DNA of 32,879 nucleotides from Streptomyces niveiscabiei (GTDB lineage: Bacteria; Actinomycetota; Actinomycetes; Streptomycetales; Streptomycetaceae): the NCBI RefSeq assembly GCF_001419795.1, contig NZ_LIRL01000185.1:1-32879 (forward strand), read 5' to 3'. The notes beneath the pieces were generated by a model that had not been told where the DNA came from, ran no database searches, and saw nothing but the letters and a program-made list of their open reading frames with translations. Numbering within the stretch: the stretch's first letter is position 1; each line of letters begins with the position of its first letter. Shown one piece after another: positions 945-17,290 of the stretch. The position numbers and the translations under genes are program-made.

Positions 945-1016
945 GAAGAATGCCCTCCCAGCGGTAGCCCGAGCCCACAGTGAACTACGGGTGGGGGGTA
1001 TCCGGCAACGCGGCAT

Positions 1017-1031
1017 TGAACACCGTTGTCA
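1017..1031. promoter_or_regulatory. Candidate Zur/Fur-type metalloregulator box
   Basis: The 15-mer TGAACACCGTTGTCA is an imperfect palindrome of the form TGA-NN-AC-N-GT-NN-TCA. It sits 73 bp upstream of the exporter start. Spacing and composition resemble actinobacterial Zur boxes, and Zur control of zitB is known in S. coelicolor. A single site found by eye is weak evidence. Confidence 0.4.
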
Positions 1032-1034
1032 TGT

Positions 1035-1069
1035 GCTCTGACCTGCGCAAATGAACCGCAGGTCAGAGC
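1035..1069. repeat. Perfect 13-bp inverted repeat in a divergent intergenic region
   Basis: The arms GCTCTGACCTGCG (1035-1047) and CGCAGGTCAGAGC (1057-1069) are exact reverse complements separated by 9 nt. Both flanking genes are transcribed away from it and no T-run follows, so it does not look like an ordinary intrinsic terminator. It may be an operator, or a hairpin in the 5' leader of one of the divergent transcripts. It lies 4 bp from the Zur-like palindrome. Confidence 0.6.
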
Positions 1070-1357
1070 CGGGACGAGGGCTTCGCGGGCCCGTGGGCAC
1101 AGAGGCTCGTGACGAAGGGATCACCGGCCGTCACCGCCCCGTCGGCACGGTTTGGCCGGAACCCCCTTGATCACCGATGATGATCTCGCCCGAGCCCGGT
1201 GTGTGCGGTCTTGAGCACGGTTGAACGGGCAGTGAACGTGAGCCTTCGGGTATCCGATAGCCTCTGCCGTCATATCGCCCGCCCGGAGTCGGGGGCCGGG
1301 CGCGGAACATTCGTCGTACGTGGCCGGGGCGCGCCGGCTCTCAGGGAGTGAGTTCGG
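1070..1357. other. Intergenic leader of the CDP-alcohol locus
   Basis: No supportable gene is seen here. It must hold the promoter of the gene starting at 1358. Three similar hexamers, TTGAGC (1211), TTGAAC (1221) and GTGAAC (1232), lie about one helical turn apart, and TAGCCT at 1258-1263 fits a loose TAnnnT -10 element, but no pair has both a good -35 and correct spacing. Confidence 0.4.
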
Positions 1358-3154
1358 TTGTCGACCGCCATCCTCACCGGCACTCCGGTCCCCGGATCGT
1401 CGATCGAGGCGGACTTGAGGTCCCTGGGGTTCGAGGTCAGGGCCGTGCGGGGCGCCGCCGAGGCGGAACGCGCGATCGCCGAGGCGCCGTGCGGGGAGCG
1501 CGTCGCGCTGGTGGACGCCCGGTTCGTGGGGCACGTGCACGCGCTGAGGCTGGCGCTGACCGACCCCCGGTTCCCCCTGTCCGCCGTACCCGGCGCCGTC
1601 GCGGCCCGCCCCGACGGCCGTACCGCCCTGGGGCGGGCGCTCGCGCGGGAGACCTCGGCGGGCGGCCGTACGGCGATAGCCGTCGGCAGCGTCGCCGACC
1701 GTGTCGTGGAGGCCCTGGACGCCGAGGGCGCGACCGTGCACCGCCCCGCGCTGGGCAGCCTCGTGGCCGCCGTCCCGCAGGACCCGCAGGCCCTGGACGA
1801 GGCGCGGCGGGCCGTCGCCGCCGTCGACGACGAGGCCGTACGCCTCAAGTCCTCCGTGAAGTCCGGCGACGGCTTCTTCACGACCTTCTTCATCAGCCCC
1901 TACTCCCGCCACCTCGCCCGCTGGTGCGCGCGGCGCGGACTGACCCCCAACCAGGTCACCACCGCCTCCCTGCTGACGGCCCTGATCGCGGCGGGCTGCG
2001 CGGCGACCGGCACGCGCGGGGGGTTCGTCGCTGCGGGCATCCTGCTGATCGTGTCGTTCGTCCTGGACTGCACGGACGGCCAGCTGGCCCGCTACGCCCT
2101 CAAGTACTCGACGCTCGGCGCCTGGCTGGACGCGACCTTCGACCGGGCCAAGGAGTACGTCTACTACGCGGGCCTCGCCCTCGGAGCGGCGCGCGGCGGC
2201 GACGACGTATGGCACCTCGCCCTGGCCGCGATGGTCCTCCAGAGCGTCCGTCACATGGTCGACTTCGCGTACCACGAGGCCGAGGACGACGTCGCGCCCC
2301 CCGCGACAGGACCCGTCAAGAAGGTCGGCCTGTCGGTGTGGGTACGCCGGATGATCATCCTGCCGATCGGTGAGCGGTGGGCGATGATCGCGGTCCTGAC
2401 GGCCGTCGCAACCCCTCGCATCACCTTCTACGCCCTGCTGATCGGCTGCGCGTTCGCCGCCGCGTACACCACGGCCGGCCGCCTCGTCCGCTCGCTCCGC
2501 CGCCGCACCCCGAACACGGACCGCTCCGCGCGGGCGCTGGCCGACATGGCGGACAACGGCGCGCTCGTCGCGGCCCTGCACCCCCTCGGCCGCCGCATCG
2601 GCGTACGCGACCACGGCACGGTCTCCCGCGTCGGCACGGTCGTCGGCGTCACGGCCCTCCTGCTGCTCGCCGCCGCCCTCACGGGACACGGCAGCCGCTG
2701 GCCCCTGATCTTCGCCGCGCTCTACGTCCTCGGCTCCGCGACCGCCACCGCCCTGCCCCTCAAGGGCAGCCTGGACTGGCTGATCGTCCCCCTCTTCCGC
2801 ACCGCCGAATACACCACCGTCCTGTTGCTCGCGGTCCACGCCGACGTGAACGGAGCGCTTCCGGCGGCTTTCGGGCTGGTGGGCGCCGTCGCCTACCATC
2901 ACTACGACACGGTGTACCGCATCCGCGGTGGCGCCGGAGCGCCGCCGGCCTGGCTGGTGCGCGCCATCGGGGGGCAGGAAGGACGGACGCTGCTCGTCTG
3001 CGTCCTCGCCGCCCTGCTCGACGGGAAGCCGCTCGCGCTCACGGCGCTCGCCGTGGCCGTCGCCCTGCTGGGGCTCGTCGAGAGCATCCGCTTCTGGGTC
3101 GCCGCACACAAGGCCGGCGCCCCTGCCGTACACGACGAAGGAGAACTCGCATGA
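1358..3154 (+). CDS. CDP-alcohol phosphotransferase, three-domain (DUF5941 type)
   Basis: A 598-aa protein. Residues ~170-390 are a membrane CDP-alcohol phosphotransferase domain with an intact signature: D237, D240, G241, A244-R245, G254, D258 and D262. Such enzymes move a phospho-alcohol from a CDP-alcohol to a second alcohol. Residues 1-165 are soluble and vaguely like a nucleotidyltransferase fold but lack its Gly-rich loop. Residues ~395-590 form a hydrophobic C-terminal region matching what I know as DUF5941. The arrangement recalls the fused cytidylyltransferase/phosphotransferase that makes di-myo-inositol phosphate in thermophiles; that comparison is only architectural. The TTG start is supported by AGGGAG 9 nt upstream and by the absence of an in-frame ATG or GTG nearby. 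It is the first gene of the locus and overlaps the next by 4 nt. The acceptor alcohol cannot be read from the sequence. Confidence 0.85.
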   Translation: MSTAILTGTPVPGSSIEADLRSLGFEVRAVRGAAEAERAIAEAPCGERVALVDARFVGHVHALRLALTDPRFPLSAVPGAVAARPDGRTALGRALARETSAGGRTAIAVGSVADRVVEALDAEGATVHRPALGSLVAAVPQDPQALDEARRAVAAVDDEAVRLKSSVKSGDGFFTTFFISPYSRHLARWCARRGLTPNQVTTASLLTALIAAGCAATGTRGGFVAAGILLIVSFVLDCTDGQLARYALKYSTLGAWLDATFDRAKEYVYYAGLALGAARGGDDVWHLALAAMVLQSVRHMVDFAYHEAEDDVAPPATGPVKKVGLSVWVRRMIILPIGERWAMIAVLTAVATPRITFYALLIGCAFAAAYTTAGRLVRSLRRRTPNTDRSARALADMADNGALVAALHPLGRRIGVRDHGTVSRVGTVVGVTALLLLAAALTGHGSRWPLIFAALYVLGSATATALPLKGSLDWLIVPLFRTAEYTTVLLLAVHADVNGALPAAFGLVGAVAYHHYDTVYRIRGGAGAPPAWLVRAIGGQEGRTLLVCVLAALLDGKPLALTALAVAVALLGLVESIRFWVAAHKAGAPAVHDEGELA

Positions 3155-3888
3155 TCGGCCTCGTGCTGGCGGCCGGCGCCGGCCGGAGACTGCGCCCCTA
3201 CACCGACACCCTGCCCAAGGCGCTGGTGCCGGTGGACGGCGAGACGACCGTCCTCGACCTGACCCTCGGCAACTTCGCCGAGATCGGCCTCACCGAGGTC
3301 GCGATCATCGTCGGGTACCGCAAGGAGGCCGTGTACGAGCGCCAGGCGGCCCTGGAGGCCAAGTACGGCCTGAAGCTCACCCTCATCGACAACGACAAGG
3401 CCGAGGAGTGGAACAACGCCTACTCCCTGTGGTGCGGCCGTGACGCCCTCAAGGGCGGGGTGATCCTCGCCAACGGCGACACCGTCCACCCGGTCTCCGT
3501 CGAGAAGACGCTGCTCGCGGCGCGCGGCGACGGCAAGAAGATCATCCTCGCCCTCGACGCGGTGAAGTCCCTCGCCGACGAGGAGATGAAGGTCGTCGCC
3601 GACCCCGAGAAGGGCGTCAGCAAGATCACCAAGCTGATGGACCCGGCCGAGGCGACCGGCGAGTACATCGGCGTCACCCTCATCGAGGGCGCCGCCGCCG
3701 AGGACCTCGCCGACGCGCTCAAGACCGTGTGGGAGACCGACCCCCAGCAGTTCTACGAGCACGGCTACCAGGAGCTGGTCAACCGCGGCTTCCAGATCGA
3801 CGTGGCGCCCATCGGTGACGTCAAGTGGGTCGAGATCGACAACCACGACGACCTGGCCAAGGGGCGGGAGATCGCATGCCAGTACTGA
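3151..3888 (+). CDS. Sugar-phosphate/phosphocholine cytidylyltransferase-like NTP transferase
   Basis: A 245-aa soluble nucleotidyltransferase. The N-terminal loop LAAGAGRRLRPYT with PK at residues 22-23 is the NTP-binding signature, EWNNAYSLW (residues 86-94) resembles the LicC-type phosphocholine cytidylyltransferase motif, D110 in ANGD is the expected metal ligand, and VEIDNHDDL near the C-terminus supplies the second acidic cluster. It probably couples CTP to a small phosphorylated alcohol. Because the next gene is a glycerol-1-phosphate dehydrogenase homologue, glycerol-1-phosphate giving CDP-glycerol is the most economical substrate, but choline- or inositol-type substrates are not excluded. 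The ATG overlaps the previous stop (ATGA) and follows GAAGGAGAA. Family assignment is firm and substrate is inferred from context. Confidence 0.85.
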   Translation: MIGLVLAAGAGRRLRPYTDTLPKALVPVDGETTVLDLTLGNFAEIGLTEVAIIVGYRKEAVYERQAALEAKYGLKLTLIDNDKAEEWNNAYSLWCGRDALKGGVILANGDTVHPVSVEKTLLAARGDGKKIILALDAVKSLADEEMKVVADPEKGVSKITKLMDPAEATGEYIGVTLIEGAAAEDLADALKTVWETDPQQFYEHGYQELVNRGFQIDVAPIGDVKWVEIDNHDDLAKGREIACQY

Positions 3889-4937
3889 CCCGGCTGATCC
3901 CGTCGCCGGTCGTCGTGGACATCCGCGCGGGTGCCCTCGACGACCTCGCCGGGGTCCTCGCCGACGAGCGCATCTCGCACTCGGGGAAGCTGGCGGTCGC
4001 CGTCAGCCCGGGGTCGGGCGCGCGCCTGAGGGAGCGGCTCCAGCCGAGCCTGCCGGGCGCGAGCTGGTACGAGGTCGGGGGCGGCACCCTCGACGACGCG
4101 ATCAGCCTCGCCGGTGCCATAAAGGCCGGCCACTACGACGCGGTCGTCGGCCTCGGCGGCGGGAAGATCATCGACTGCGCGAAGTTCGCCGCCGCCCGGG
4201 TCGGGCTGCCGCTGGTCGCGGTCGCCACCAACCTGGCGCACGACGGCCTGTGTTCGCCGGTCGCGACCCTCGACAACGACGCGGGGCGCGGCTCGTACGG
4301 CGTACCGAACCCGATCGCGGTCGTCATCGACCTCGAACTCGTCCGTGAGGCGCCCGTCCGGTTCGTGCGGTCCGGGATCGGCGACGCGATCTCCAACATC
4401 TCGGCCGTCGCGGACTGGGAGCTGTCCAACCGGGTCAACGGCGAGAAGATCGACGGCCTCGCCGCCGCCATGGCCCGTCAGGCGGGCGAGGCGGTGCTGC
4501 GCCACCCCGGTGGCGTCGGCGACGACGGGTTCCTCCAGGTCCTCGCCGAGGCGCTGGTCCTCACCGGGATCGCGATGTCCGTCTCCGGCGACTCGCGGCC
4601 CTCCTCCGGCGCCTGCCACGAGATCAACCACGCCTTCGACCTGCTGTTCCCCAAGCGTGCCGCGGCGCACGGCGAGCAGTGCGGCCTCGGTGCCGCGTTC
4701 GCCATGTACCTGCGGGGCGCGCACGAGGAGTCCGCGTACATGGCGGAGGTCCTGCGCCGCCACGGCCTGCCGGTGCTGCCGGAGGAGATCGGCTTCAGCG
4801 TGGACGAGTTCGTCCGGGCCGTCGAGTTCGCCCCGCAGACCCGCCCCGGCCGCTACACGATCCTCGAACACCTCGACCTCACGACCGACCAGATCAAGGA
4901 CGTCTACGCCGACTATGTCAAGGCCATCGGTAGCTGA
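3876..4937 (+). CDS. sn-glycerol-1-phosphate dehydrogenase-like Fe/Zn alcohol dehydrogenase
   Basis: A 353-aa cytosolic NAD(P)-dependent enzyme of the iron-containing alcohol dehydrogenase superfamily, closest by motif to the EgsA/AraM branch that reduces dihydroxyacetone phosphate to sn-glycerol-1-phosphate. The nucleotide loop GLGGGKIID is at residues 92-100. Expected metal ligands are D170 in SGIGD, H248 (with H252) in CHEINH and H265 in AHGEQ. The AHDG (121-124) and SAVADWEL (176-183) segments are typical of that branch rather than of glycerol dehydrogenases. Length fits. The ATG start overlaps the previous gene by 13 nt and has GGGGCGGGAG upstream. Bacterial glycerol-1-phosphate enzymes are uncommon because bacterial lipids use the opposite enantiomer. 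Here it sits between a cytidylyltransferase and two CDP-alcohol phosphotransferase-like genes, which suggests it supplies their phospho-alcohol. A different keto-phosphate substrate is possible. Confidence 0.85.
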   Translation: MPVLTRLIPSPVVVDIRAGALDDLAGVLADERISHSGKLAVAVSPGSGARLRERLQPSLPGASWYEVGGGTLDDAISLAGAIKAGHYDAVVGLGGGKIIDCAKFAAARVGLPLVAVATNLAHDGLCSPVATLDNDAGRGSYGVPNPIAVVIDLELVREAPVRFVRSGIGDAISNISAVADWELSNRVNGEKIDGLAAAMARQAGEAVLRHPGGVGDDGFLQVLAEALVLTGIAMSVSGDSRPSSGACHEINHAFDLLFPKRAAAHGEQCGLGAAFAMYLRGAHEESAYMAEVLRRHGLPVLPEEIGFSVDEFVRAVEFAPQTRPGRYTILEHLDLTTDQIKDVYADYVKAIGS

Positions 4938-5694
4938 ACTCCGGCCGGTAGTCCACCCCGCAGGGGTCAAGGACCGCCGCAGCGGCGAGCACTGGATGGG
5001 CCGCCTCTACATGCGCGAGGTGTCCCTCAGGGTCGACCGCTACCTGGTCAACACCCGCGTCACGCCGAACCAGTTGACGTACCTGATGACGGTCTGCGGC
5101 GTCCTGGCCGCCCCCGCCCTCCTGGTGCCCGGCATCTGGGGTGCGGTCCTCGGCGTCGTCGCGGTGCAGCTGTACCTCCTGCTGGACTGCGTGGACGGCG
5201 AGATCGCGCGCTGGCGCAAGCAGTACTCACTGGCCGGCGTCTACCTGGACCGCGTCGGCGCCTACCTGACCGACGCGGCCGTCCTCGTCGGCCTCGGCCT
5301 GCGCGCCGCCGACGTGTTCGGCACCGGGCGCATCGACTGGCTGTGGGCGTTCCTCGGGACGCTCGCCGCGCTCGGCGCGATCCTGATCAAGGCCGAGACG
5401 GACCTGGTCGGGGTGGCCCGGCACCAGAACGGGATGGCGCCGGTCAAGGAGTCGGCGTCCGAGCCGCGCTCCTCCGGGATGGCGCTGGCCCGCAAGGCCG
5501 CCGCCGCGCTCAAGTTCCACCGGCTGATCCTCGGCATCGAGGCGTCCTTGCTGATCCTGGTCCTCGCGGTCGCCGACCACTACCACGGCGACCTGTTCTG
5601 GACCCGCCTGGGCACCGCCGTCCTCGCCGGGATCGCGCTCCTCCAGACGCTCCTGCACCTGGTGTCGGTGCTGGTCTCCAGCAGGCTGAAGTGA
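4915..5694 (+). CDS. CDP-alcohol phosphotransferase-like protein lacking the fourth Asp
   Basis: A 259-aa integral membrane protein with the CDP-alcohol phosphotransferase fold. The signature starts normally with D91, D94, G95, A98-R99, G108 and D112, but the position four residues after D112, where the catalytic-base Asp belongs, is A116. The nearest acidic residue downstream is D120. Codons at 5248-5280 read through this stretch without ambiguity. Several hydrophobic segments follow to residue ~255. The ATG at 4915 overlaps the upstream gene by 23 nt and has only a weak ribosome site (AAGGA, 14 nt away), so translation is probably coupled; Met28 and Met33 are later alternatives. It may be an active enzyme with altered chemistry, a partner of the phosphotransferase at 1358, or a binding protein. 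The fold is clear; the activity is not. Confidence 0.8.
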   Translation: MSRPSVAELRPVVHPAGVKDRRSGEHWMGRLYMREVSLRVDRYLVNTRVTPNQLTYLMTVCGVLAAPALLVPGIWGAVLGVVAVQLYLLLDCVDGEIARWRKQYSLAGVYLDRVGAYLTDAAVLVGLGLRAADVFGTGRIDWLWAFLGTLAALGAILIKAETDLVGVARHQNGMAPVKESASEPRSSGMALARKAAAALKFHRLILGIEASLLILVLAVADHYHGDLFWTRLGTAVLAGIALLQTLLHLVSVLVSSRLK

Positions 5695-6584
5695 CCTCCA
5701 CCGAGGCCGGCACGAAGGTCGGCGCCGTCGTCATCACGATGGGCAACCGCCCCGAGGAACTGCGGGCGCTGCTCGACTCGGTCGCCAAGCAGGACGGCGA
5801 CCCGGTCGAGGTGGTCGTGGTCGGCAACGGCTCGCCCGTCCCCGACGTACCCGAGGGCGTGCGCACGGTCGAGCTGCCGGAGAACCTCGGCATCCCGGGC
5901 GGGCGCAACGTCGGCATCGAGGCGTTCGGGCCGAGCGGGCGGGACGTCGACATACTGCTGTTCCTCGACGACGACGGCCTGCTGCCGGAGCACGACACCG
6001 CCGAGCTGTGCCGCAGGGCGTTCGCCGAGGACGCGCGGCTCGGGATCGTCAGCTTCCGCATCGCCGACCCCGAGACGGGGGTGACGCAGCGCCGGCACGT
6101 GCCGAGGCTGCGAGCCTCCGACCCGATGCGCTCCTCGCGGGTCACGACGTTCCTCGGCGGCGCCAACGCCGTGCGAACCCAGGTGTTCGCCGAGGTCGGC
6201 GGGTTGCCCGACGCGTTCTTCTACGCCCACGAGGAGACCGACCTCGCGTGGCGGGCGCTGGACGCCGGGTGGGGGATCGACTACCGGTCCGACATGGTGC
6301 TGTTCCACCCGACGACGGCGCCCTCGCGGCACGCGGTCTACCACCGCATGGTGGCCCGCAACCGCGTGTGGCTGGCCCGCCGCAACCTGCCCGCCGTCCT
6401 CGTCCCGGTCTACCTCGGGGTGTGGCTGGCGCTGACCCTGCTCCGCCGGCCCTCCCTGTCCGCGCTGAAGGCGTGGTTCGGCGGTTTCCGGGAAGGCTGG
6501 ACCACCGACTGCGGCCCACGCCGGCCGATGCGGTGGCGTACGGTGTGGCGGCTGACCCGGCTGGGCCGTCCGCCGATCATCTGA
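5691..6584 (+). CDS. Family 2 glycosyltransferase
   Basis: A 297-aa GT-A glycosyltransferase. The nucleotide-binding strand GAVVITMGNRP (residues 11-21), ENLGIPGGRN (64-73), the metal-binding DDD (93-95) and acidic HEETD (180-184) are in the usual order; the N-terminal region resembles rhamnosyl- or galactofuranosyl-transferases acting on lipid-linked acceptors. A hydrophobic stretch at ~209-226 and a basic C-terminus suggest association with the inner face of the membrane. The GTG start overlaps the previous stop as GTGA, with only a short AGG upstream, so translational coupling is likely. Context suggests it adds a sugar to the glycerol-phosphate-containing product before export by the next two genes. 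The donor sugar cannot be determined here. Confidence 0.85.
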   Translation: MTSTEAGTKVGAVVITMGNRPEELRALLDSVAKQDGDPVEVVVVGNGSPVPDVPEGVRTVELPENLGIPGGRNVGIEAFGPSGRDVDILLFLDDDGLLPEHDTAELCRRAFAEDARLGIVSFRIADPETGVTQRRHVPRLRASDPMRSSRVTTFLGGANAVRTQVFAEVGGLPDAFFYAHEETDLAWRALDAGWGIDYRSDMVLFHPTTAPSRHAVYHRMVARNRVWLARRNLPAVLVPVYLGVWLALTLLRRPSLSALKAWFGGFREGWTTDCGPRRPMRWRTVWRLTRLGRPPII

Positions 6585-6703
6585 AAAGCTCCTCCCCGGG
6601 CCCGGACGGCAGCCGGAGACCGGCGACCGGGCCGTAAGGCCACCCTCCCCGCCTCGTGCCAGGCCCGCCCAGGCCGCGCATCCCGAGACGAAAGTTTCCG
6701 CTT

Positions 6704-7633
6704 GTGAGTGAGAGAACCCATGAAGGCGGCGTCATGACGAGTGAGCCCCCGTCACCGGACGACGGGCTCACGCCCGAGCAGCTCGCCGCGAAGTACGGGC
6801 TGGCCGTCAGCGGGGCCCGCCCGTCCCTGCGCGCGTACGTCCGCCAGCTGTGGGGCCGGCGCCACTTCATCCTGGCCTTCTCCTCGGCCAAGCTGGCCGC
6901 CCAGTACAGCCAGGCCAAGCTGGGCCAGCTCTGGCAGGTGGCGACGCCGCTGCTGAACGCGGTCGTGTACTTCCTGATCTTCGGGCTGATCCTGAACGCC
7001 GGGAAGGGCATGCCGAAGGACGTCTACATCCCGTTCCTCGTCACGGGCATCTTCGTCTTCACCTTCACGCAGAGCTCGGTCATGTCGGGCGTGCGGGCGA
7101 TCTCCGGCAACCTCGGCCTGGTGCGCGCGCTGCACTTCCCGCGCGCCTCCCTGCCGATCTCCTTCGCGCTCCAGCAGCTCCAGCAGCTGCTGTGGTCGAT
7201 GCTGGTGCTGTTCCTGGTCGTGATGGCGTTCGGCAGCTACCCGGACCTGTCCTGGGCGTTGATCGTGCCGGTGCTGGCGCTCCAGTTCCTCTTCAACACC
7301 GGCCTCGCCCTGATCTTCGCCCGGGCCGGCGCCAAGACCCCCGACCTCGCGCAGCTCATGCCGTTCGTGCTGCGCACGTGGATGTACGCGTCCGGTGTCA
7401 TGTTCTCCATCCCGGTCTACCTCGCCGAGCGTCCCGGCTGGGTCTCCACCGTGCTCCAGTGGAACCCGACGGCCGTCTACATGGACCTGATGCGTTTCGC
7501 CCTGATCGAGGACTACGGCTCGGCCAACCTGCCCGACCACGTCTGGATGGTCGCGGGCGGCTGGGCCGTCCTGTTCGCCGTCGGCGGCTTCGTGTACTTC
7601 TGGCAGGCGGAGGAGAGGTACGGCCGTGGCTGA
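6704..7633 (+). CDS. ABC-2 polysaccharide/teichoic-acid export permease (TagG-like)
   Basis: A 309-aa permease with about six membrane segments beginning near residue 80, after a cytosolic N-terminus. The RHFILAF and QYSQAKLGQLWQVATPLLN region is characteristic of TagG/Wzm-type permeases that export polyprenyl-linked wall polymers and O-antigens. The GTG at 6704 (VSERTHEGG) is chosen because related Streptomyces proteins, as I recall them, begin there; ATG at 6734, with AAGGCGG upstream, is a credible alternative. The 119-nt gap after the glycosyltransferase contains no terminator I can see, so co-transcription is likely. It overlaps the ATPase by 8 nt. Together they form one exporter whose likely cargo is the product of genes 1358-6584. 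Confidence 0.88.
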   Translation: MSERTHEGGVMTSEPPSPDDGLTPEQLAAKYGLAVSGARPSLRAYVRQLWGRRHFILAFSSAKLAAQYSQAKLGQLWQVATPLLNAVVYFLIFGLILNAGKGMPKDVYIPFLVTGIFVFTFTQSSVMSGVRAISGNLGLVRALHFPRASLPISFALQQLQQLLWSMLVLFLVVMAFGSYPDLSWALIVPVLALQFLFNTGLALIFARAGAKTPDLAQLMPFVLRTWMYASGVMFSIPVYLAERPGWVSTVLQWNPTAVYMDLMRFALIEDYGSANLPDHVWMVAGGWAVLFAVGGFVYFWQAEERYGRG

Positions 7634-8408
7634 GCAGAACCCCAGGGTGCCCACCGTCATCGCGCAGGACGTGCACATCGTGTACCGCGTCAACGGCGCC
7701 AAGGGCGGCAAGGGCAGCGCGACCGCCGCCCTCAGCCGGATCGTCAAGCGCCGCAAGGGCGGCGAGGAACGCGGCGTGCGCAAGGTCCACGCCGTACGGG
7801 GGGTGTCGTTCACCGCGTACCGGGGTGAGGCGATCGGGCTGATCGGCACCAACGGCTCGGGCAAGTCGACGCTGCTGCGGGCGATCGCCGGGCTGCTGCC
7901 GCCGGAGAGCGGCAGGGTGTACACCGACGGGCAGCCCTCGCTGCTCGGCGTCAACGCGGCCCTGATGAACGACCTGACCGGGGAGCGCAACGTCGTCCTC
8001 GGCGGGCTCGCCATGGGCATGTCCCGGGAGCAGGTCAAGGAGCGCTACCAGGAGATCGTCGACTTCTCGGGGATCAACGAGAAGGGCGACTTCATCTCGC
8101 TGCCGATGCGCACCTACTCCTCCGGGATGGCGGCGCGGCTGCGCTTCTCCATCGCCGCCGCCAAGGACCACGACGTCCTGATGATCGACGAGGCCCTCGC
8201 GACCGGCGACCGCAAGTTCCAGGTCCGCTCCGAGGAACGCATCCGGGAACTGCGCAAGCAGGCGGGCACGGTGTTCCTCGTCAGCCACAGCAACAAGTCG
8301 ATCCGCGACACCTGCGACCGGGTTCTGTGGCTGGAGCGCGGCGAGCTGCGCATGGACGGTCCGACGGACGCGGTGATCAAGGAGTACGAGAAGTTCACGG
8401 GCAAATAG
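7626..8408 (+). CDS. ABC exporter ATPase (TagH/Wzt-like)
   Basis: A 260-aa ATPase with Walker A GTNGSGKST (residues 74-82), signature YSSGMAARL (164-172), Walker B DVLMIDEA (183-190) and switch His221 in VSHSNKS. The signature and the long N-terminal extension before the P-loop place it with TagH/KpsT/Wzt exporters of wall polymers. It ends shortly after the core domain, so it lacks the C-terminal carbohydrate-recognition domain of Wzt and the long extension of Bacillus TagH; cargo selection probably relies on the permease or lipid. The GTG start overlaps the permease by 8 nt and follows GGCGGAGGAGAGG. It is the last gene of the unit, with a terminator 12 nt after its stop. Confidence 0.9.
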   Translation: MAEQNPRVPTVIAQDVHIVYRVNGAKGGKGSATAALSRIVKRRKGGEERGVRKVHAVRGVSFTAYRGEAIGLIGTNGSGKSTLLRAIAGLLPPESGRVYTDGQPSLLGVNAALMNDLTGERNVVLGGLAMGMSREQVKERYQEIVDFSGINEKGDFISLPMRTYSSGMAARLRFSIAAAKDHDVLMIDEALATGDRKFQVRSEERIRELRKQAGTVFLVSHSNKSIRDTCDRVLWLERGELRMDGPTDAVIKEYEKFTGK

Positions 8409-8454: not shown

Positions 8455-8711
8455 CGTCTGCAAAAGAAATGTCAACTCGGCGGGGCGATAGGAATCTTGA
8501 CGGCAATCGGTGTGTTGTTGTGATCTGCGGGAGACCCCGACGAACCACCGTTCGCTGTACAACGTAAGCTGTAGCGGTCTCGAATCGCGGCAAGTGGGGC
8601 GATAACGTGCGCGGACGACTTCAGTGGGGACACCGCCGCGCGGGGGTCCGGGCGGCGTGTCCGAAATAGTGCGTATTGGGTCGGCAGTGTAGAACGGGAG
8701 ATGTGACGGCA
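8455..8711. other. Promoter region of the hopanoid operon
   Basis: No gene is seen. The stretch is more AT-rich than its surroundings (for example AAAAGAAATGTCAA near 8462). TTGACG at 8497-8502 is a good -35, but the -10 at 18-bp spacing (TGATCT, 8521-8526) is poor. The ribosome site GGGAG (8696-8700) precedes the ATG at 8712. This must contain the main promoter of the long downstream operon. Confidence 0.4.
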
Positions 8712-9626
8712 ATGGCTACGGATACTCCCAGCACCGACCGTGGCACCCTCGACAAGGCCGCCGACGAGAACTTCCCCGTCGCCCCCTTCTTCCTCCCCCG
8801 CGCCTGGCGTGACGACCTCATGGCGATCTACGGCTTCGCGCGCCTCGTCGACGACATCGGCGACGGCGACCTGAAACCCGAGGTGAAACGCACCCGCCTC
8901 GACGAGACCCGCGCCCTGCTCGCCCGCGTGCGCGAGGGCGACGTCGCCGAGGACGACACCGACCCCGTCGCGGTCGCCCTCACCCACGCCTCCCGCGTCT
9001 ACCCCGTCCCGCTCGGCGGGCTCGACGAGCTGATCGACGGCGTCGAGATGGACCTGCGCGGCGAGACCTACGAGACCTGGGACGACCTCAAGACGTACTG
9101 CAAGTGCGTCGCCGGAGCCATCGGACGGCTCTCCATCGGCGTCTTCGGCACCCGCCCCGGCGCGCGCGGCGTCGAGCGGGCCCCCGAGTACGCCGACACC
9201 CTCGGCCTCGCCCTCCAGCTCACCAACATCCTGCGCGACGTCCGCGAGGACGCCGAGGGCGGCCGTACCTACCTGCCCGCCGACGACCTCGCCAAGTTCG
9301 GCTGCGCGGCCGGCTTCGCCTCCCCCGTGCCCCCGCCGGGCTCCGACTTCGCGGGCCTCGTCCACTTCGAGGTACGGCGCGCCCGCGCGCTGTTCGCCGA
9401 GGGCTACCGCCTGCTGCCGATGCTGGATAGGCGCAGCGGCGCCTGCGTGGCCGCGATGGCCGGGATCTACCGGCGCCTGCTCGACCGCATCGAACGCGAT
9501 CCCGAGGCCGTCCTGCGCGGCCGGGTCTCCCTGCCCGGCCGGGAGAAGGCGTACGTCGCCGCGCGCGGCCTGTCCGGACTCGACGCCCGCACCGTCTCCC
9601 GCCAGACCGTCAGGAGGTCCTCTTGA
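8712..9626 (+). CDS. Chimeric HpnC/HpnD squalene-synthase-family prenyltransferase
   Basis: A 304-aa all-helical trans-isoprenyl diphosphate synthase. Residues 1-~45 carry the HpnC hallmark ENFPVAPFFLPRAWRDDL. From about residue 55 the protein is HpnD: YETWDDLKTYC, LALQLTNILRDVREDA with TYLP, the MLDRRSGACVAAMAGIYRRL stretch and the RGRVSLPGREKAYVA tail. The join falls in VDDIGDGDL, the first Asp-rich motif shared by both families, so length and both metal motifs (DDIGD at 47-51 and the second near 177) are preserved. In the three-enzyme route HpnD makes presqualene diphosphate, HpnC makes hydroxysqualene and HpnE reduces it; related clusters carry separate hpnC and hpnD here, and this one has a single gene. 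ATG 8712 is preferred over GTG 8703 because GGGAG would be too close to the latter. Either HpnD-like activity or both steps is possible. Confidence 0.85.
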   Translation: MATDTPSTDRGTLDKAADENFPVAPFFLPRAWRDDLMAIYGFARLVDDIGDGDLKPEVKRTRLDETRALLARVREGDVAEDDTDPVAVALTHASRVYPVPLGGLDELIDGVEMDLRGETYETWDDLKTYCKCVAGAIGRLSIGVFGTRPGARGVERAPEYADTLGLALQLTNILRDVREDAEGGRTYLPADDLAKFGCAAGFASPVPPPGSDFAGLVHFEVRRARALFAEGYRLLPMLDRRSGACVAAMAGIYRRLLDRIERDPEAVLRGRVSLPGREKAYVAARGLSGLDARTVSRQTVRRSS

Positions 9627-9718
9627 CGGACTCTTGGGCCCCGCTTGTCACCCCCGTCTCCCGGGCAACCCTCCGCGTCCGCCCGGCGTCACAGACGGCA
9701 TGGGAGGGCGCACGATGA
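9623..9718 (+). CDS. 31-aa translationally coupled small protein between the hpnD-type gene and hpnE
   Basis: A TTG-initiated frame of 31 codons. Its start overlaps the preceding stop as TTGA and its stop overlaps the hpnE ATG as ATGA. A near-perfect ribosome site, AGGAGGTCC (9612-9620), lies 2-4 nt upstream. The product is basic and soluble, with SRATLR (residues 13-18) and a C-terminal EGAR. From memory, other Streptomyces hopanoid clusters have a short Arg-rich protein at this position (DUF6380), and the SRATL...EGAR pattern resembles it. No function can be assigned. It could act as a peptide, or mainly serve to couple translation into hpnE. Confidence 0.6.
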   Translation: MTDSWAPLVTPVSRATLRVRPASQTAWEGAR

Positions 9719-11106
9719 CCGACGAGAACACCGGCCGCTCCGCCGTCGTCGTCGGCGGCGGCCTCGCCGGGGTCACCGCGGCGCTCGGCCTCGCGGACGC
9801 GGGCGTGCGGGTCACCCTCCTCGAAGGGCGGCCACGCCTCGGCGGGCTCGCGTTCTCCTTCCGGCGCGGCGAGTTGAGCGTCGACAACGGCCAGCACGTC
9901 TACCTGCGCTGCTGCACGGCCTACCGCTGGTTCCTGGAGCGCATCGGCGGCGCCGGACTCGCCCCGCTCCAGCCCCGGCTCGACGTACCGGTCGTCGACG
10001 TCGCCAGACCCGAGGGACGGCGGCTGGGCAGGCTCAGGCGTGACGCCCTGCCGGTGCCACTGCATCTCGGGCGCAGCCTCGCCACGTACCCGCATCTCTC
10101 GCTCGCCGAGCGCGCCAAGGTGGGCCGCGCCGCGCTCGCGCTGAAGGGGCTCGACCCCGCCGACCCGGCGCTGGACGAGCAGGACTTCGGCGGCTGGCTG
10201 GCCGCGCACGGCCAGTCCGCGCGGACCGTCGAGGCCCTGTGGGACCTGGTCGGGGTCGCCACCCTCAACGCGGTCGCGACAGACGCCTCGCTGGGGCTCG
10301 CCGCGATGGTGTTCAAGACCGGTCTGCTGTCCGACCCGGGCGCCGCCGACATCGGCTGGGCCCATGTCCCGCTGGGCGAACTGCACGACCGGCTGGCCCG
10401 CAAGGCGCTCGACTCCGCGGGCGTGAACATCGAGGTCCGAACACGCGTCACCTCCATCTCCCGGCAGGACAACGGCCGGTGGACCGTGGAAGTTCCCGGC
10501 CGCGCCCTCGAAACGGACGCGGTCGTTCTCGCCGTACCCCAGCGCGAGGCGTACGACCTCCTGCCGGCCGGGGCGCTCGACGCACCCGGGCGGCTCCTGG
10601 AGATCGGCACCGCGCCCATCCTGAACGTGCACGTGATCTACGACCGGCCGGTCATGAACGTGCCCTTCCTCGCCGCCCTCGGCACCCCCGTCCAGTGGGT
10701 CTTCGACCGCACCGACGCCTCCGGGCTCACCGGCGGCCAGTACCTGGCGCTGTCCCAGTCGGCCGCCCAGGACGAGATCGACGCGCCCGTGGCGGCGCTG
10801 CGCGAGCGCTACCTGCCGGAGCTGGAGAAGCTGCTGCCGAGGGCGCGCGGCGCCGCCGTACGCGACTTCTTCGTCACCCGCGAGAAGACCGCGACCTTCG
10901 CCCCCGCCCCCGGCGTCGGACGGCTGCGTCCCGGCGCCCGCACGAAAGCACCCGGCCTCTACCTGGCCGGCGCGTGGACCGCCACCGGGTGGCCCGCGAC
11001 CATGGAGAGCGCGGTCCGCAGCGGTACGAACGCGGTGGATGCCGCGCTCGGCGCGCTCGGCCGCCCACGACCCTCCCGGCTCTTCGCATCAGAGGAGGCC
11101 GCCTGA
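9715..11106 (+). CDS. hpnE: Hydroxysqualene dehydroxylase HpnE
   Basis: A 463-aa FAD-dependent amine-oxidase-type flavoprotein. The Rossmann motif VVVGGGLAG (residues 11-19) is followed by the acidic LLEG ribose-binding end and RPRLGG; the second FAD segment near the C-terminus is PGLYLAGAWTATGWPATMES. HpnE reduces hydroxysqualene to squalene in bacterial hopanoid synthesis. The start is set by GGGAGGG (9702-9708), 6 nt before the ATG, and by the ATGA overlap with the small upstream ORF. The stop overlaps an alternative start of the next gene (TGATG). Its substrate is normally made by HpnC, so its presence beside a chimeric HpnC/HpnD raises the question of where hydroxysqualene comes from. 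Family assignment is strong and supported by the cluster. Confidence 0.92.
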   Translation: MTDENTGRSAVVVGGGLAGVTAALGLADAGVRVTLLEGRPRLGGLAFSFRRGELSVDNGQHVYLRCCTAYRWFLERIGGAGLAPLQPRLDVPVVDVARPEGRRLGRLRRDALPVPLHLGRSLATYPHLSLAERAKVGRAALALKGLDPADPALDEQDFGGWLAAHGQSARTVEALWDLVGVATLNAVATDASLGLAAMVFKTGLLSDPGAADIGWAHVPLGELHDRLARKALDSAGVNIEVRTRVTSISRQDNGRWTVEVPGRALETDAVVLAVPQREAYDLLPAGALDAPGRLLEIGTAPILNVHVIYDRPVMNVPFLAALGTPVQWVFDRTDASGLTGGQYLALSQSAAQDEIDAPVAALRERYLPELEKLLPRARGAAVRDFFVTREKTATFAPAPGVGRLRPGARTKAPGLYLAGAWTATGWPATMESAVRSGTNAVDAALGALGRPRPSRLFASEEAA

Positions 11107-11204
11107 TGCTCCACCAGCACAGCACGGCAGGTTCCCGCACCTCCGGTACCGCGGCCCCCGATCACGCCGCGCACGCCGCGCACACCGCGACAAGAGGAGA
11201 AACT

Positions 11205-12281
11205 GTGCCCACTGTGCCCCCGGCCTCGCCGGCCGCCGCTCGAAGGACCGCGGTGGACGTGACCGCGCTCCTGGAGCGCGGACGCACCCTGGCCACCCCG
11301 GTGCTGCGGGCCGCCGCGAGCCGGCTCGCACCCCCCATGGACACGGTCGCGGCCTACCACTTCGGCTGGATCGACGCCCTGGGCAACCCCACCGAGGGCG
11401 ACGGCGGCAAGGCCGTACGCCCCGCGCTCGCCGTGCTGTCCGCCGAGGTCACCGGCGCCGACCCGGCCGTCGGCGTACCCGGCGCGGTCGCCGTCGAGCT
11501 GGTGCACAACTTCTCGCTCCTGCACGACGACCTGATGGACGGCGACGAGCAGCGCCGCCACCGCGACACCGTCTGGAAGGTGCACGGCCCCGCCCAGGCG
11601 ATCCTCGTCGGCGACGCCCTCTTCGCGCTCGCCTACGAGGTCCTCCTGGAGTCCGGCACCGCGGGCGCCGGCCGCGCCGCACGCCGGCTCACCGCCGCGA
11701 CCCGCGCCCTCATCGACGGGCAGGCCCAGGACATCTCCTACGAGCACCGCGACCGCGTCAGCGTCGAGGAGTGCCTGGAGATGGAGGGCAACAAGACCGG
11801 CGCCCTCCTCGCCTGCGCCTCCTCCGTCGGGGCCGTCCTCGGCGGGGCGGGCGAGAAGGACGCCGACACCCTGGAGAAGTACGGCTACCACCTGGGCCTC
11901 GCCTTCCAGGCCGTCGACGACCTCCTCGGCATCTGGGGCGACCCGGACGCGACCGGCAAGCAGACCTGGTCCGACCTGCGCCAGCGCAAGAAGTCCCTGC
12001 CCGTCGTCGCCGCGCTCGCGGCCGGCGGCAGCGCCTCGGAGCGGCTCGGCGACCTGCTCGCCGCCGACGCGAAGAGCACCGACTTCGCGAACTTCTCCGA
12101 GGAGGAGTTCGCGGCCCGCGCCGCCCTCATCGAGGAGGCGGGCGGCCGGGAGTGGACGGCCGCGGAAGCGCGCCGCCAGCACACCATCGCCATCGAAGCC
12201 CTCGGCGACGTGGACATGCCCGAGCAGGTACGGGAGAAGTTCACGGCGCTCGCCGACTTCGTCGTCGTACGAAAGAGATGA
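11205..12281 (+). CDS. Short-chain polyprenyl diphosphate synthase (FPP/GGPP type)
   Basis: A 358-aa prenyl elongase with both Asp-rich motifs: LLHDDLMDGD (DDxxD at 108-112) and AFQAVDDLLGIWGD. Phe103, five residues before the first motif, fits a short product (C15-C20). It probably supplies farnesyl diphosphate for squalene formation. GTG 11205 is chosen because AGAGGAG (11193-11199) is 5 nt upstream and the mature sequence (PTVPPAS) matches remembered homologues. An in-frame ATG at 11106 also has a strong AGAGGAGG site 7 nt upstream and overlaps the hpnE stop as TGATG; it would add a 33-residue His/Ala-rich extension. Both starts may be used. The 122-nt gap before shc shows no terminator. 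Confidence 0.88.
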   Translation: MPTVPPASPAAARRTAVDVTALLERGRTLATPVLRAAASRLAPPMDTVAAYHFGWIDALGNPTEGDGGKAVRPALAVLSAEVTGADPAVGVPGAVAVELVHNFSLLHDDLMDGDEQRRHRDTVWKVHGPAQAILVGDALFALAYEVLLESGTAGAGRAARRLTAATRALIDGQAQDISYEHRDRVSVEECLEMEGNKTGALLACASSVGAVLGGAGEKDADTLEKYGYHLGLAFQAVDDLLGIWGDPDATGKQTWSDLRQRKKSLPVVAALAAGGSASERLGDLLAADAKSTDFANFSEEEFAARAALIEEAGGREWTAAEARRQHTIAIEALGDVDMPEQVREKFTALADFVVVRKR

Positions 12282-12403: not shown

Positions 12404-14467
12404 ATGACAGCGACGACCGACGGAAGCACCGGGGCCCTGCCGCCCCGCGCTGCCGCGGCCAGCGACACCGACATCACGATCCCCGTGGCGGCCGGGGTAC
12501 AAGAAGCCGCCGAGCGCGCGATGCGCCGCGCCACCGAGCACCTGCTCGCCCACCAGGACGCGCAGGGCTGGTGGAAGGGCGACCTGGAGACCAACGTCAC
12601 CATGGACGCCGAGGACCTGCTCCTGCGGCAGTTCCTCGGCATCCGCGACGAGGAGACCACCCAGGCGTCCGCCCTCTTCGTCCGCGGCGAACAGCGCGAG
12701 GACGGCACCTGGGCCACCTTCTACGGCGGCCCTCCCGACCTCTCCGCCACGATCGAGGCGTACGTCGCCCTCCGGCTCGCCGGGGACGACCCCGAGGCCC
12801 CGCACATGGCGAAGGCGTCCGCCTGGATCCGCGACCGGGGCGGCATCGCCTCCGCCCGCGTCTTCACCCGGATCTGGCTCGCCCTGTTCGGCTGGTGGAA
12901 GTGGGAGGACCTGCCCGAACTCCCGCCGGAACTCATCTACTTCCCGCGCTGGTTCCCCCTGTCGATCTACAACTTCGGCTGCTGGGCCCGGCAGACCATC
13001 GTTCCGCTGACCGTGGTCTCCGCGAAGCGCCCGGTGCGTCCGGCGCCCTTCCCGCTGGACGAGCTGCACGCCGACCCCGCGCTGCCCAACCCGCCCAAAC
13101 CCCTGGCCCCGCTGGCGAGTTGGGACGGGCTCTTCCAGCGGCTCGACAAGGTCGTGCGCGGCTACCGGCCGTTCGCGGTGCGCCGGCTCAGGCGGTCCGC
13201 GCTGAACTCCGCCGCCCGCTGGATCGTCGAGCGGCAGGAGAACGACGGCTGCTGGGGAGGCATCCAGCCGCCCGCGGTGTACTCCGTCATCGCCCTGTAC
13301 CTGCTCGGCTACGACCTCGAACACCCCGTCATGCGCGCCGGGTTGGAGTCGCTGGACCGGTACGCCGTGTGGCGCGAGGACGGCGCCCGGATGATCGAGG
13401 CGTGCCAGTCGCCGGTGTGGGACACCTGCCTGGCCACCATCGCCCTCGCGGACGCCGGAGTGCCCGCCGATCACCCGCAGTTGGTGAAGGCCGCCGACTG
13501 GATGCTCGGCGAGCAGATCGTGCGGCCCGGCGACTGGTCCGTATCGCGGCCCCAACTGCCGCCGGGCGGCTGGGCGTTCGAGTTCCACAACGACAACTAC
13601 CCCGACATCGACGACACCGCCGAGGTCGTCCTCGCGCTGCGCCGGGTCCGCCACCACGACCCGGAGCGGGTGGAGAAGGCGATCGCGCGCGGGGTGCGGT
13701 GGAACCTCGGGATGCAGTCCCGGGACGGCGGCTGGGGCGCCTTCGACGTCGACAACACCAGCCCCTTCCCCAACCGGCTGCCGTTCTGCGACTTCGGCGA
13801 GGTCATCGACCCGCCGTCCGCCGACGTCACCGCGCACGTCGTCGAGATGCTCGCGGTCGAGGGCCTCTCCCACGACCCGCGCACCCGGCGCGGCATCGCC
13901 TGGCTGCTCGCCGAACAGGAGCCGGACGGCTCGTGGTTCGGGCGCTGGGGCGTCAACTACGTGTACGGCACCGGGTCGGTGGTCCCCGCGCTCGTCGCCG
14001 CCGGGCTGCCCGCCCAGCACCCCGCGATCCGGCGCGCGGTGACCTGGCTGGAGCACGTCCAGAACGAGGACGGCGGCTGGGGCGAGGACCTGCGCTCCTA
14101 CCAGGAGTCCACGAAGTGGGCGGGCAGCGGCGCGTCCACGGCCTCCCAGACCGGCTGGGCCCTGATGGCGCTCCTCGCGGCGGGCGAGCGCGACTCCCGG
14201 GCTGTCGAGCGGGGCATCGCCTGGCTCGCGCGGACCCAGCGGGAGGACGGCTCCTGGGACGAGCCGTACTTCACCGGCACCGGGTTCCCGTGGGACTTCT
14301 CGATCAACTACCACCTGTACCGGCAGGTGTTCCCGCTGACCGCGCTCGGGCGGTACGTCAACGGGGAGCCGGTGTTCGCCCGGACGCCGGACACGGTGCA
14401 GGGGGCCGAGAAGAGAGGGGCCGGCCAGGCGGTCTCCGCAGGTTCGTCCGACGTCAAGGCGAGCTGA
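12404..14467 (+). CDS. shc: Squalene-hopene cyclase
   Basis: A 687-aa class II triterpene cyclase that converts squalene to hopene/hopanol at the membrane. The proton-donating DXDD motif is DIDDT at residues 401-405. Repeated QW-type motifs are visible (QDAQGWW near 51, QENDGCWGG near 278, QSRDGGWGAF, EDGGWGED, REDGSWDE). Length is within the usual 630-690. The N-terminal 30 residues are low in complexity and the C-terminal ~25 are a variable tail. The ATG has AGGGGAAG about 4 nt upstream. The stop overlaps the hpnG ATG (TGATG). It is the defining enzyme of the hopanoid cluster; all expected catalytic elements that can be read are intact. Confidence 0.97.
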   Translation: MTATTDGSTGALPPRAAAASDTDITIPVAAGVQEAAERAMRRATEHLLAHQDAQGWWKGDLETNVTMDAEDLLLRQFLGIRDEETTQASALFVRGEQREDGTWATFYGGPPDLSATIEAYVALRLAGDDPEAPHMAKASAWIRDRGGIASARVFTRIWLALFGWWKWEDLPELPPELIYFPRWFPLSIYNFGCWARQTIVPLTVVSAKRPVRPAPFPLDELHADPALPNPPKPLAPLASWDGLFQRLDKVVRGYRPFAVRRLRRSALNSAARWIVERQENDGCWGGIQPPAVYSVIALYLLGYDLEHPVMRAGLESLDRYAVWREDGARMIEACQSPVWDTCLATIALADAGVPADHPQLVKAADWMLGEQIVRPGDWSVSRPQLPPGGWAFEFHNDNYPDIDDTAEVVLALRRVRHHDPERVEKAIARGVRWNLGMQSRDGGWGAFDVDNTSPFPNRLPFCDFGEVIDPPSADVTAHVVEMLAVEGLSHDPRTRRGIAWLLAEQEPDGSWFGRWGVNYVYGTGSVVPALVAAGLPAQHPAIRRAVTWLEHVQNEDGGWGEDLRSYQESTKWAGSGASTASQTGWALMALLAAGERDSRAVERGIAWLARTQREDGSWDEPYFTGTGFPWDFSINYHLYRQVFPLTALGRYVNGEPVFARTPDTVQGAEKRGAGQAVSAGSSDVKAS

Positions 14468-15108
14468 TGGGAGCCCCGTCCGGTCCGGCCCCGCTGCTGG
14501 TCGCCTGTGCGCTGGGCATCGAGCATGTCGCCCTGCGCCTGGGGGACCGCGGCGGGGCCGCCGGGCCCGTGACCGTGCTGCGCACCGGGATGGGGCCGCG
14601 GGCCGCCGAGCGGTCGGTCGGGCGGGTGCTCGCGGATCCGCTGCTTCAAGGGGCCGCCGTGCTCGCCACCGGGTTCTGCGCGGGCCTCGCACCCGGGATG
14701 CACCCCGGTGACCTGGTGGTCGCCGAGGAGACCCGGGACCCGCGCGGGAGCGTCCCGTGCGTGGACACCGAACTGCTGGTCAAGGAACTCGCCCGCACCC
14801 TGCCGGGGTGCACCGTCCACACGGGCCCCCTCGTGGGGTCCGACCACGTCGTCCGGGGCCCGGAGCGTTCCGCGCTCAGGGCCACCGGCGCGATCGCCGT
14901 GGACATGGAGTCCGCCGCGACGCTCCTGAGCGCCGTGCGCGCGGGCACACGCCCCGTTGCGGCCGTCCGGGTGGTCGTGGACGCTCCAGAACATGAACTC
15001 GTCCGGATCGGCACGCTGCGCGGTGGAATATCGGCTTTCCGCGTCCTTCGTTCCGTCCTGCCTTCTTTCTTCGAATGGCACCGTAATGTGCTGCTCCCTC
15101 GGAGGTGA
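14467..15108 (+). CDS. hpnG: Adenosylhopane nucleosidase HpnG (phosphorylase superfamily)
   Basis: A 213-aa nucleoside phosphorylase-like enzyme. In hopanoid synthesis HpnG removes adenine from adenosylhopane to give ribosylhopane. The family's base/ribose-binding VDMESAA is at residues 145-151 (M147, E148), and ATGFCAGL at 67-74 is the glycine-rich phosphate-site strand. The ATG overlaps the shc stop by one base, so translation is probably coupled; the stop TGA overlaps the GGAGG ribosome site of hpnH. Its position between shc and hpnH matches the order of the chemistry only in part (HpnH acts first), but co-occurrence is standard in hopanoid clusters. Confidence 0.88.
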   Translation: MGAPSGPAPLLVACALGIEHVALRLGDRGGAAGPVTVLRTGMGPRAAERSVGRVLADPLLQGAAVLATGFCAGLAPGMHPGDLVVAEETRDPRGSVPCVDTELLVKELARTLPGCTVHTGPLVGSDHVVRGPERSALRATGAIAVDMESAATLLSAVRAGTRPVAAVRVVVDAPEHELVRIGTLRGGISAFRVLRSVLPSFFEWHRNVLLPRR

Positions 15109-15113
15109 GCCAG

Positions 15114-16136
15114 ATGGCCATGCCGCTGCGTCAGTCCATCAAAGTCGCCACATACCTGGCCGAACAGAAGCTCCGTAAGCGGGACAAGTTCCCGCTGATC
15201 GTGGAGCTGGAACCCCTGTTCGCCTGCAACCTGAAGTGCGAGGGCTGCGGAAAGATCCAGCACCCGGCCGGTGTCCTCAAACAGCGCATGCCCGTCGCGC
15301 AGGCCGTCGGCGCGGTCCTGGAGTCGGGCGCGCCGATGGTGTCCATCGCGGGCGGCGAGCCCCTGATGCACCCTCAGATCGACGAGATCGTGCGCCAGTT
15401 GGTGGCCCGGAAGAAGTACGTCTTCCTCTGCACCAACGCCCTGCTGCTGCGCAAGAAGATCGACAAGTTCACGCCGTCGCCGTACTTCGCGTTCACCGTG
15501 CACATCGACGGCCTGCGCGAGCGGCACGACGAGTCGGTCGCGAAGGAGGGCGTGTTCGACGAGGCCGTGGAGGCGATCAAGGAGGCCAAGCGGCGCGGCT
15601 TCCGCGTCACCACCAACTCGACGTTCTTCAACACCGACACCCCGCAGACCATCATCGAGGTCCTCAACTACCTCAACGACGACCTCAAGGTCGACGAGAT
15701 GATGATCTCCCCGGCCTACGCCTACGAGAAGGCCCCCGACCAGGACCACTTCCTCGGCGTCGAGCAGACCCACGAACTGTTCCGCAAGGCGTTCTCCGGC
15801 GGCAGCCGGCGCCGCTGGCGGCTCAACCACTCCCCGCTCTTCCTGGACTTCCTGGAGGGCAAGGTCGACTTCCCGTGCACGGCGTGGGCGATCCCCAACT
15901 ACTCCCTGTTCGGCTGGCAGCGCCCCTGCTACCTGATGGCCGACGGCTACGTCCCGACGTACCGCGAACTCATCGAGAAGACCGACTGGGACAAGTACGG
16001 CCGCGGCAAGGACCCCCGCTGCGACAACTGCATGGCCCACTGCGGCTACGAACCGACCGCCGTCCTCGCCACCATGGGCTCGCTGAAGGAGTCGCTGCGG
16101 GCCATGCGCGAGACCGTCGCCGGGAACCGCGAGTGA
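15114..16136 (+). CDS. hpnH: Radical SAM adenosyl-hopene transferase HpnH
   Basis: A 340-aa radical SAM enzyme that adds a 5'-deoxyadenosyl group to hopene, giving adenosylhopane. The cluster motif is C38-x3-C42-x2-C45 (CNLKCEGC), followed by [10 protein letters not shown] for SAM binding. C-terminal cysteines (CDNCMAHC) fit the extended domain of this family. ATG 15114 is chosen over GTG 15105 because GGAGG (15101-15105) is 8 nt away and the protein then begins [15 protein letters not shown] like known HpnH proteins. The stop overlaps the ispG GTG (GTGA). Assignment is strong. Confidence 0.95.
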
Positions 16137-17290
16137 CCTCCGTCCCCCTGGGCGTCCCCGAGGTACCGGCCCGTCCGATCGCCGCGCGACGTGTCTCGCG
16201 GCGGATCGACGTCGGGCCGGTACCGGTCGGGGGCGGGGCCCCTGTGTCGGTGCAGTCGATGACGACGACGCGTACGTCGGACATCGGCGCGACGCTCCAG
16301 CAGATCGCCGAGCTCACCGCGTCCGGCTGCCAGATCGTCCGCGTCGCGTGTCCCACGCAGGACGACGCGGACGCGCTCGCCACCATCGCGCGCAAGTCGC
16401 AGATCCCGGTGATCGCGGACATCCACTTCCAGCCGAAGTACGTGTTCGCCGCGATCGAGGCCGGGTGCGCGGCCGTCCGGGTCAACCCCGGCAACATCAA
16501 GCAGTTCGACGACAAGGTCCGGGAGATCGCGCGGGCCGCCCGCGATCACGGGACGCCGGTCCGGATCGGGGTCAACGCCGGGTCCCTGGACCGGAGGCTG
16601 CTCCAGAAGTACGGGAAGGCGACGCCGGAGGCGCTCGTCGAGTCGGCGTTGTGGGAGGCGTCGCTGTTCGAGGAGCACGGCTTCCGGGACATCAAGATCT
16701 CCGTCAAGCACAACGACCCCGTCGTGATGGTCGAGGCGTACCGGCAGTTGGCCGCGCAGTGCGACTATCCCCTGCATCTGGGGGTCACCGAGGCCGGGCC
16801 CGCGTTCCAGGGGACCGTCAAGTCGGCCGTCGCGTTCGGGGCGTTGCTCTCCCAGGGCATCGGTGACACCATCCGGGTCTCGCTGTCCGCGCCGCCCGCC
16901 GAGGAGGTCAAGGTCGGCATCCAGATCCTGGAGTCGCTGAACCTGCGGCAGCGGCGGCTGGAGATCGTGTCCTGCCCGTCCTGCGGGCGCGCCCAGGTCG
17001 ACGTGTACCGGCTCGCCGACGAGGTCATGGCCGGCCTCGACGGCATGGAGGTGCCGCTCAGGGTCGCCGTCATGGGGTGCGTGGTCAACGGGCCCGGCGA
17101 GGCGCGCGAGGCCGACCTCGGGGTCGCCTCCGGGAACGGCAAGGGGCAGATCTTCGTGAAGGGCGAGGTCGTCAGGACCGTCCCCGAGTCGAAGATCGTC
17201 GAGACCCTGATCGAGGAGGCGATGAAGATCGCCGCACAGCTGGAGAAGGACGGCGTCGAAGCAGGGGAGCCCGCCGTCACCGTGAGTTGA
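16133..17290 (+). CDS. ispG: 4-hydroxy-3-methylbut-2-enyl diphosphate synthase IspG
   Basis: A 385-aa iron-sulfur enzyme of the MEP pathway converting MEcPP to HMBPP. The N-terminal TIM barrel includes [11 protein letters not shown] (40-50) and [10 protein letters not shown]; the [4Fe-4S] ligands C281, C284 and C316 and the fourth ligand E323 in NGPGEA are intact. The GTG start overlaps the hpnH stop by 4 nt. Streptomyces usually have another ispG elsewhere, so this is probably a dedicated copy boosting isoprenoid flux to hopanoids; that is inferred from context. A 26-nt gap precedes dxs. Confidence 0.95.

Follow-up and report, generated by a model that had tools for sequence, protein, structure and literature searches.

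HpnD converts two molecules of FPP to presqualene diphosphate, HpnC then forms hydroxysqualene, and HpnE reduces this to squalene (Pan et al. 2015, as related in passages of PMC5462960). The passages of the same paper describe full-length HpnCD fusions in Acidobacteria subdivision 2, Actinopolyspora, Blastococcus, and Rhodospirillum, and those of a review describe the dehydrosqualene synthase CrtM and squalene synthase as carrying out two half-reactions in one protein (PMC7839719). Literature searches at the level of titles and passages brought up no report of a natural HpnC/HpnD chimera. The window analysed here is a stretch of 32,879 nucleotides of Streptomyces niveiscabiei, located within a contig of 33,315 bases (C553) of a draft genome (G000) of 9.55 Mb that is distributed over 1,456 contigs and is 97.38% complete by marker score. 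At positions 8712-9626 of its plus strand we found a gene of 304 amino acids with an HpnC N-terminus and an HpnD body, as judged by its open reading frame, profile scores, and family-separating residues; translation could alternatively begin at an in-frame GTG at 8703. Like the HpnCD fusions, it carries hpnC and hpnD sequence in one frame in the order C-D, but the fusions, as the passages of PMC5462960 present them, are about double its size and keep both enzymes, whereas the chimera has the length of one gene, a single SQS/PSY domain, and most of HpnC missing. Its AlphaFold model had the usual squalene-synthase fold (mean pLDDT 82.8) and came closest to a CrtM-like structure (8is8, Z 29.6), with S. 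aureus CrtM (2zco) at Z 27.7 and HpnC (4hd1) at Z 26.6. The likeness to CrtM and squalene synthase lies in this fold; in sequence the chimera belongs with the bacterial one-step enzymes, and nothing pointed to the second half-reaction. The pLDDT was 54 at residues 11-20 and 63 at residues 21-30, and these low values need not stem from the swap; 8 of the 30 alignment rows were HpnC.

The two parts of the protein were compared with both families by profile scores. The first 53 codons scored 54.3 bits against HpnC and 25.6 bits against HpnD, and the sequence from 8856 onward scored 252.8 bits against HpnD and 121.6 bits against HpnC. As a whole, the chimera reached 287.5 bits with the NCBIfam profile of HpnD (TIGR03465), above the curated cut-off of 278.6, and 184 bits with that of HpnC (TIGR03464), below the curated cut-off of 250.45, so that automated annotation would name it plain HpnD, as the original prediction had anticipated. 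An alignment with 122 HpnD and 124 HpnC proteins of relatives contained 102 separating positions, defined by at least 90% uniformity within each family and a difference between them. At the 19 such positions in residues 13-45, the chimera was HpnC-like at 18, HpnD-like at none, and neither at one, and past residue 45 it had no HpnC-specific residue: at the 83 positions in residues 59-302, it was HpnD-like at 81, HpnC-like at none, and neither at two. There is thus a single clean switch from HpnC to HpnD between residues 45 and 59. This pattern is far beyond chance, and it is confirmed for the assembled sequence, not for the DNA of the cell. An odd HpnD N-terminus as the sole explanation was ruled out by the profile scores and the separating residues together. 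The claim that 8712-9626 encodes a 304-residue HpnC-HpnD chimera was therefore borne out, the N-terminus fitting HpnC better than HpnD when aligned with both.

The position of the join was narrowed by DNA alignment with relatives. The hpnC-derived part (8712-8845, plus strand, residues 1-45) ends with the last hpnC-specific base at 8845. The sequence first departs from hpnC with a Lys codon at 8874, where 129 of 133 hpnC genes encode Ala; the earliest base typical of hpnD alone is 8881, within the hpnD-derived part (8874-9626, plus strand). Given one switch, the last hpnC-specific base and the first departure place the join most likely within the 28 nt between them, at 8846-8873 of the plus strand, a stretch encoding VDDIGDGDL at the common DDIGDG motif that fits both genes; the original prediction, which had put it in DDIGDG at 8844-8873, was nearly exact. 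The genes of the relatives lie with hpnC directly upstream of hpnD, and the distance from one DDIGDG motif to the other was 920-968 nt over 104 loci, being 923 nt in 78 of them. This count came from a first pattern that found both motifs in 104 of 145 loci (the remaining 41, without one or both motifs by this pattern, include the window's own locus and unrelated loci), and with a broader pattern 133 of 136 loci yielded both genes. Since the distance is mostly 923 nt, one loss of about 0.92 kb gives the observed gene, in agreement with the proposed loss of about one gene length. In 66 of 133 relatives, hpnC and hpnD were identical over 21 nt or more at the motif, the longest such run being 27 nt, and up to 28 nt of identity is possible at the join in this strain.

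Downstream of the chimera on the plus strand lie hpnE, encoding an intact hydroxysqualene dehydroxylase (9715-11106; 459.7 bits, cut-off 283), a polyprenyl diphosphate synthase gene with an intact frame and an uncertain start (11106-12281), an intact squalene-hopene cyclase gene (12404-14467; 785.7 bits, cut-off 431), an hpnG-like phosphorylase gene (14467-15108; 81.1 bits, below the cut-off of 187), the adenosyl-hopene transferase gene hpnH (15105-16136; 538.8 bits, cut-off 225), and ispG, with an uncertain start (16133-17290; 537.3 bits, cut-off 345). With HpnE, the cyclase, HpnH, and IspG above their cut-offs and HpnG below, there was no clear decay downstream, and the view that the rest of the cluster is intact held for these four and less firmly for HpnG. 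The best NCBIfam match of the prenyl synthase was "family 2 encapsulin nanocompartment cargo protein polyprenyl transferase", with 395.9 bits and the cut-off of 450 unmet. Upstream of the hopanoid cluster, window positions 1352-8408 contain a CDP-alcohol phosphotransferase-like gene, a gene resembling glycerol-1-phosphate dehydrogenase (235 bits versus a cut-off of 413), and an ABC exporter of the teichoic-acid/galactan type; by their similarities, these genes are perhaps a surface-polymer cluster.

A genome search for another hpnC, which had been put forward together with the original prediction, was run by profile on the contigs of the draft, and no second hpnC was found in the assembly. Besides the chimera, the HpnC matches comprised two other SQS/PSY-family genes and two matches at chance level. 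The two family members, on contigs C1370 and C1338, were rejected as hpnC at 66.5 and 56.5 bits versus the cut-off of 250. The gene on C1370 (L002, about 616-2271, minus strand) has its SQS/PSY-family domain fused with a second domain in one frame of 551 amino acids; from its appearance, we take the second domain to be a prenyltransferase of the undecaprenyl-diphosphate-synthase type. Among the 391 other genomes of the genus, 389 gave an HpnC match with an E-value of 1e-45 or lower, and the two without were 82% and 81% complete. The best match in the draft had an E-value of 1.4e-53, and that of every other genome with a match was 1.2e-70 or better. The HpnC cut-off was passed by 386 of 392 genomes, the draft included in the total. 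Judging by E-values, three further genomes below the cut-off are probably G145, G171, and G201; their presumed hpnC matches were split between frames in the first two and partial in the third. These sequences suggest that a small number of further genomes may also have a broken, or a mis-sequenced, hpnC. SQS/PSY-family matches split between frames were seen in G145, G171, G082, G288, and G375, some of which are genomes of one or two contigs, and represent either pseudogenes of hpnC or hpnD or sequencing errors. No other HpnC/HpnD chimera was present among the matches listed from the 391 other genomes, nor among the 80 loci examined, where matches begin at residue 11 or 19.

We consider it slightly more likely than not, with a probability of roughly 0.53, that the chimera is the product of a collapsed short-read assembly and that the strain has ordinary, separate hpnC and hpnD genes. 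According to this reading, the draft assembly would have run the first 45 codons of hpnC into the body of hpnD through the identical VDDIGDG-coding stretch, and the loop of about 0.92 kb, consisting of the rest of hpnC, the intergenic stretch, and the start of hpnD, would have been dropped in the assembly and not in the cell. The contig count of the draft was the fourth highest of the 392 genomes (the counts of the others being rounded). An inverted repeat of exactly 21 nt was found at 9 of 122 readable contig ends, for example at the 3' ends of L162 and L163, and in none of 20,000 stretches drawn at random from complete relatives, which suggests an assembler word length of about 21 nt. Adapter-like sequence, which we take to be Nextera-like, occurred at two contig ends (one by a stricter match), and CLC, Ray, or SPAdes are presumably possible assemblers. 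The shortest of 92 contigs measured 1,010 bases; the cut-off seems to have been about 1 kb, with smaller contigs apparently absent, so that a loop contig of about 0.92 kb would probably have been discarded. Against 800 kb from four relatives whose assemblies comprise one or a few contigs, 792 kb of the draft had fewer repeats of 21-30 nt spaced 150-500 nt apart (2 clusters versus 8) and fewer of 31 nt or more spaced 20-150 nt apart (1 cluster versus 12). The near-universality of the HpnC match in the genus was also counted in favour of collapse.

The other reading that deserves serious weight, though we rate it at somewhat below even odds, is a chromosomal deletion of about 0.92 kb between the two motif copies, which share at most 28 nt of identity, by which HpnC was lost and the path from FPP blocked. 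There is one clean breakpoint, sited in a direct repeat, and comparable repeats were retained elsewhere in the assembly. In the relevant class, repeats of 21-30 nt spaced 500-3,000 nt apart, the draft was not poorer than the relatives (8 clusters in 792 kb versus 6 in 800 kb), and repeats of 31 nt or more at this distance numbered 2 clusters versus 4. A tandem pair on contig C552, presumably of BMP lipoprotein genes, which has eight exact repeats (21-33 nt) spaced 1,246 nt apart, was kept, as was an ATPase pair on C940 that has one of 21 nt spaced 1,081 nt apart. The tandem pairs checked, that on C552 and ATPase pairs on C910, C940, and C565, were all present as pairs, repeats of at least 21 nt being confined to C552 and C940. 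No second collapse was found in these few places; a tandem pair at locus L304 had no clear counterpart in the draft and was hence uninformative on collapse. With the draft set aside, 46 of the 48 assemblies of at least 400 contigs kept a strong HpnC match, and the other two are incomplete genomes. The split or partial hpnC matches in three other genomes indicate that loss may occur, although split frames may equally be sequencing errors. Hopanoids are reportedly not essential for the growth of S. scabies, going by the title of Seipke and Loria 2009. Against the deletion, no such join was seen among the matches listed from the 391 other genomes, and its sole carrier is among the most fragmented assemblies.

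Relaxed or compensating change in the HpnD part, as might follow such a deletion, was assessed by a rate test. Four residues, Y97, K131, I142, and A284, were unseen at positions that are uniform in 122 relatives, and the relatives have at most three such residues each, in this set and in a second one of 78. As controls, hpnE had 1-2, the prenyl synthase 1, and the first 200 residues of the cyclase 0. Among 43 further loci, several of which are pieces of one genome, K131 and I142 each occurred in 0 of 40, whereas 3 of 40 had Y97 and 1 of 43 had A284. The divergence of the HpnD part ranked 4 of 79 when set against hpnE and 2 against the cyclase, but 41 against the prenyl synthase, and the relatives had been chosen for likeness to the chimera, which biases the comparison. 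Because divergence was ordinary relative to the prenyl synthase, the four-residue signal is weak, and the rate test reads as ambiguous. K131 and I142 (in the region of window positions 9046-9140) sit on helix 123-145 of the structure model. Weighing the deletion against a collapsed assembly, we lean slightly to collapse; the confidence attached to each is a matter of judgement and not of calculation.

If the gene exists in the cell as assembled, its sequence suggests an HpnD-type enzyme, probably impaired, that would lack HpnC activity. Residue 19 of the chimera is Glu, as in 124 of 124 HpnC proteins, and is Arg in 122 of 122 HpnD proteins. It aligns opposite the Lys of the SKSF stretch in S. 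aureus CrtM, presumably Lys-20. A passage of the review states that Arg-15 of HpnD, the equivalent of CrtM Ser-19, helps to stabilise presqualene diphosphate formation (PMC7839719). Streptomyces HpnD has Ala at the position matching Ser-19 (122 of 122), so this finding is a guide to the region only, the residue itself being a different one. With an HpnD-type body and without HpnD's own first 45 residues, the chimera would probably be impaired in HpnD activity too.

The remaining readings had far less in their favour. A real bifunctional enzyme that takes FPP through presqualene diphosphate to hydroxysqualene, like the one-protein eukaryotic squalene synthase, would be compatible with the intact HpnE and hopene cyclase downstream and with the usual fold of the model. 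However, with no HpnC-like residue at any of the 83 separating positions from residue 59 on and the invariant Arg of HpnD exchanged for the Glu of HpnC, such an enzyme is unlikely, and the score against the squalene synthase profile TIGR01559 was 34.7 bits versus a cut-off of 286.75; this bifunctional reading, which the original prediction had entertained, thus found no residue-level support and appears highly improbable. A real chimera accompanied by a separate, complete hpnC in sequence that the draft does not cover, leaving a working pathway, is allowed by the incompleteness of the draft and the apparent absence of contigs below about 1 kb, but relatives carry hpnC directly before hpnD and the draft's remaining HpnC matches were of the kinds described above, and we hold out very little hope for it. 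It is just as hard to credit a persisting natural swap of the N-terminus in which the four unseen residues are compensating changes and FPP is taken to hydroxysqualene, feeding the intact HpnE and cyclase.

The original prediction was partly supported: the observation was right and well described, and its interpretation of the chimera as natural is unproven, since an assembly such as this one could itself give rise to the join and no second genome shows the join among the matches listed. On balance, a natural chimera is slightly less likely than a collapsed assembly. In the event of a collapse, the locus illustrates that adjacent paralogues with a short common motif can be joined in frame in draft genomes, and that a plain-HpnD annotation conceals the join as well as the absence of a gene. 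If the deletion is real, the path from FPP would halt at or before presqualene diphosphate, and hopanoids would be absent or strongly reduced. Of the 392 genomes compared within the genus, this strain's would then be the only one to have lost hpnC by fusion into hpnD, and the chimera would provide a natural test of which paralogue segment decides between making and consuming presqualene diphosphate.
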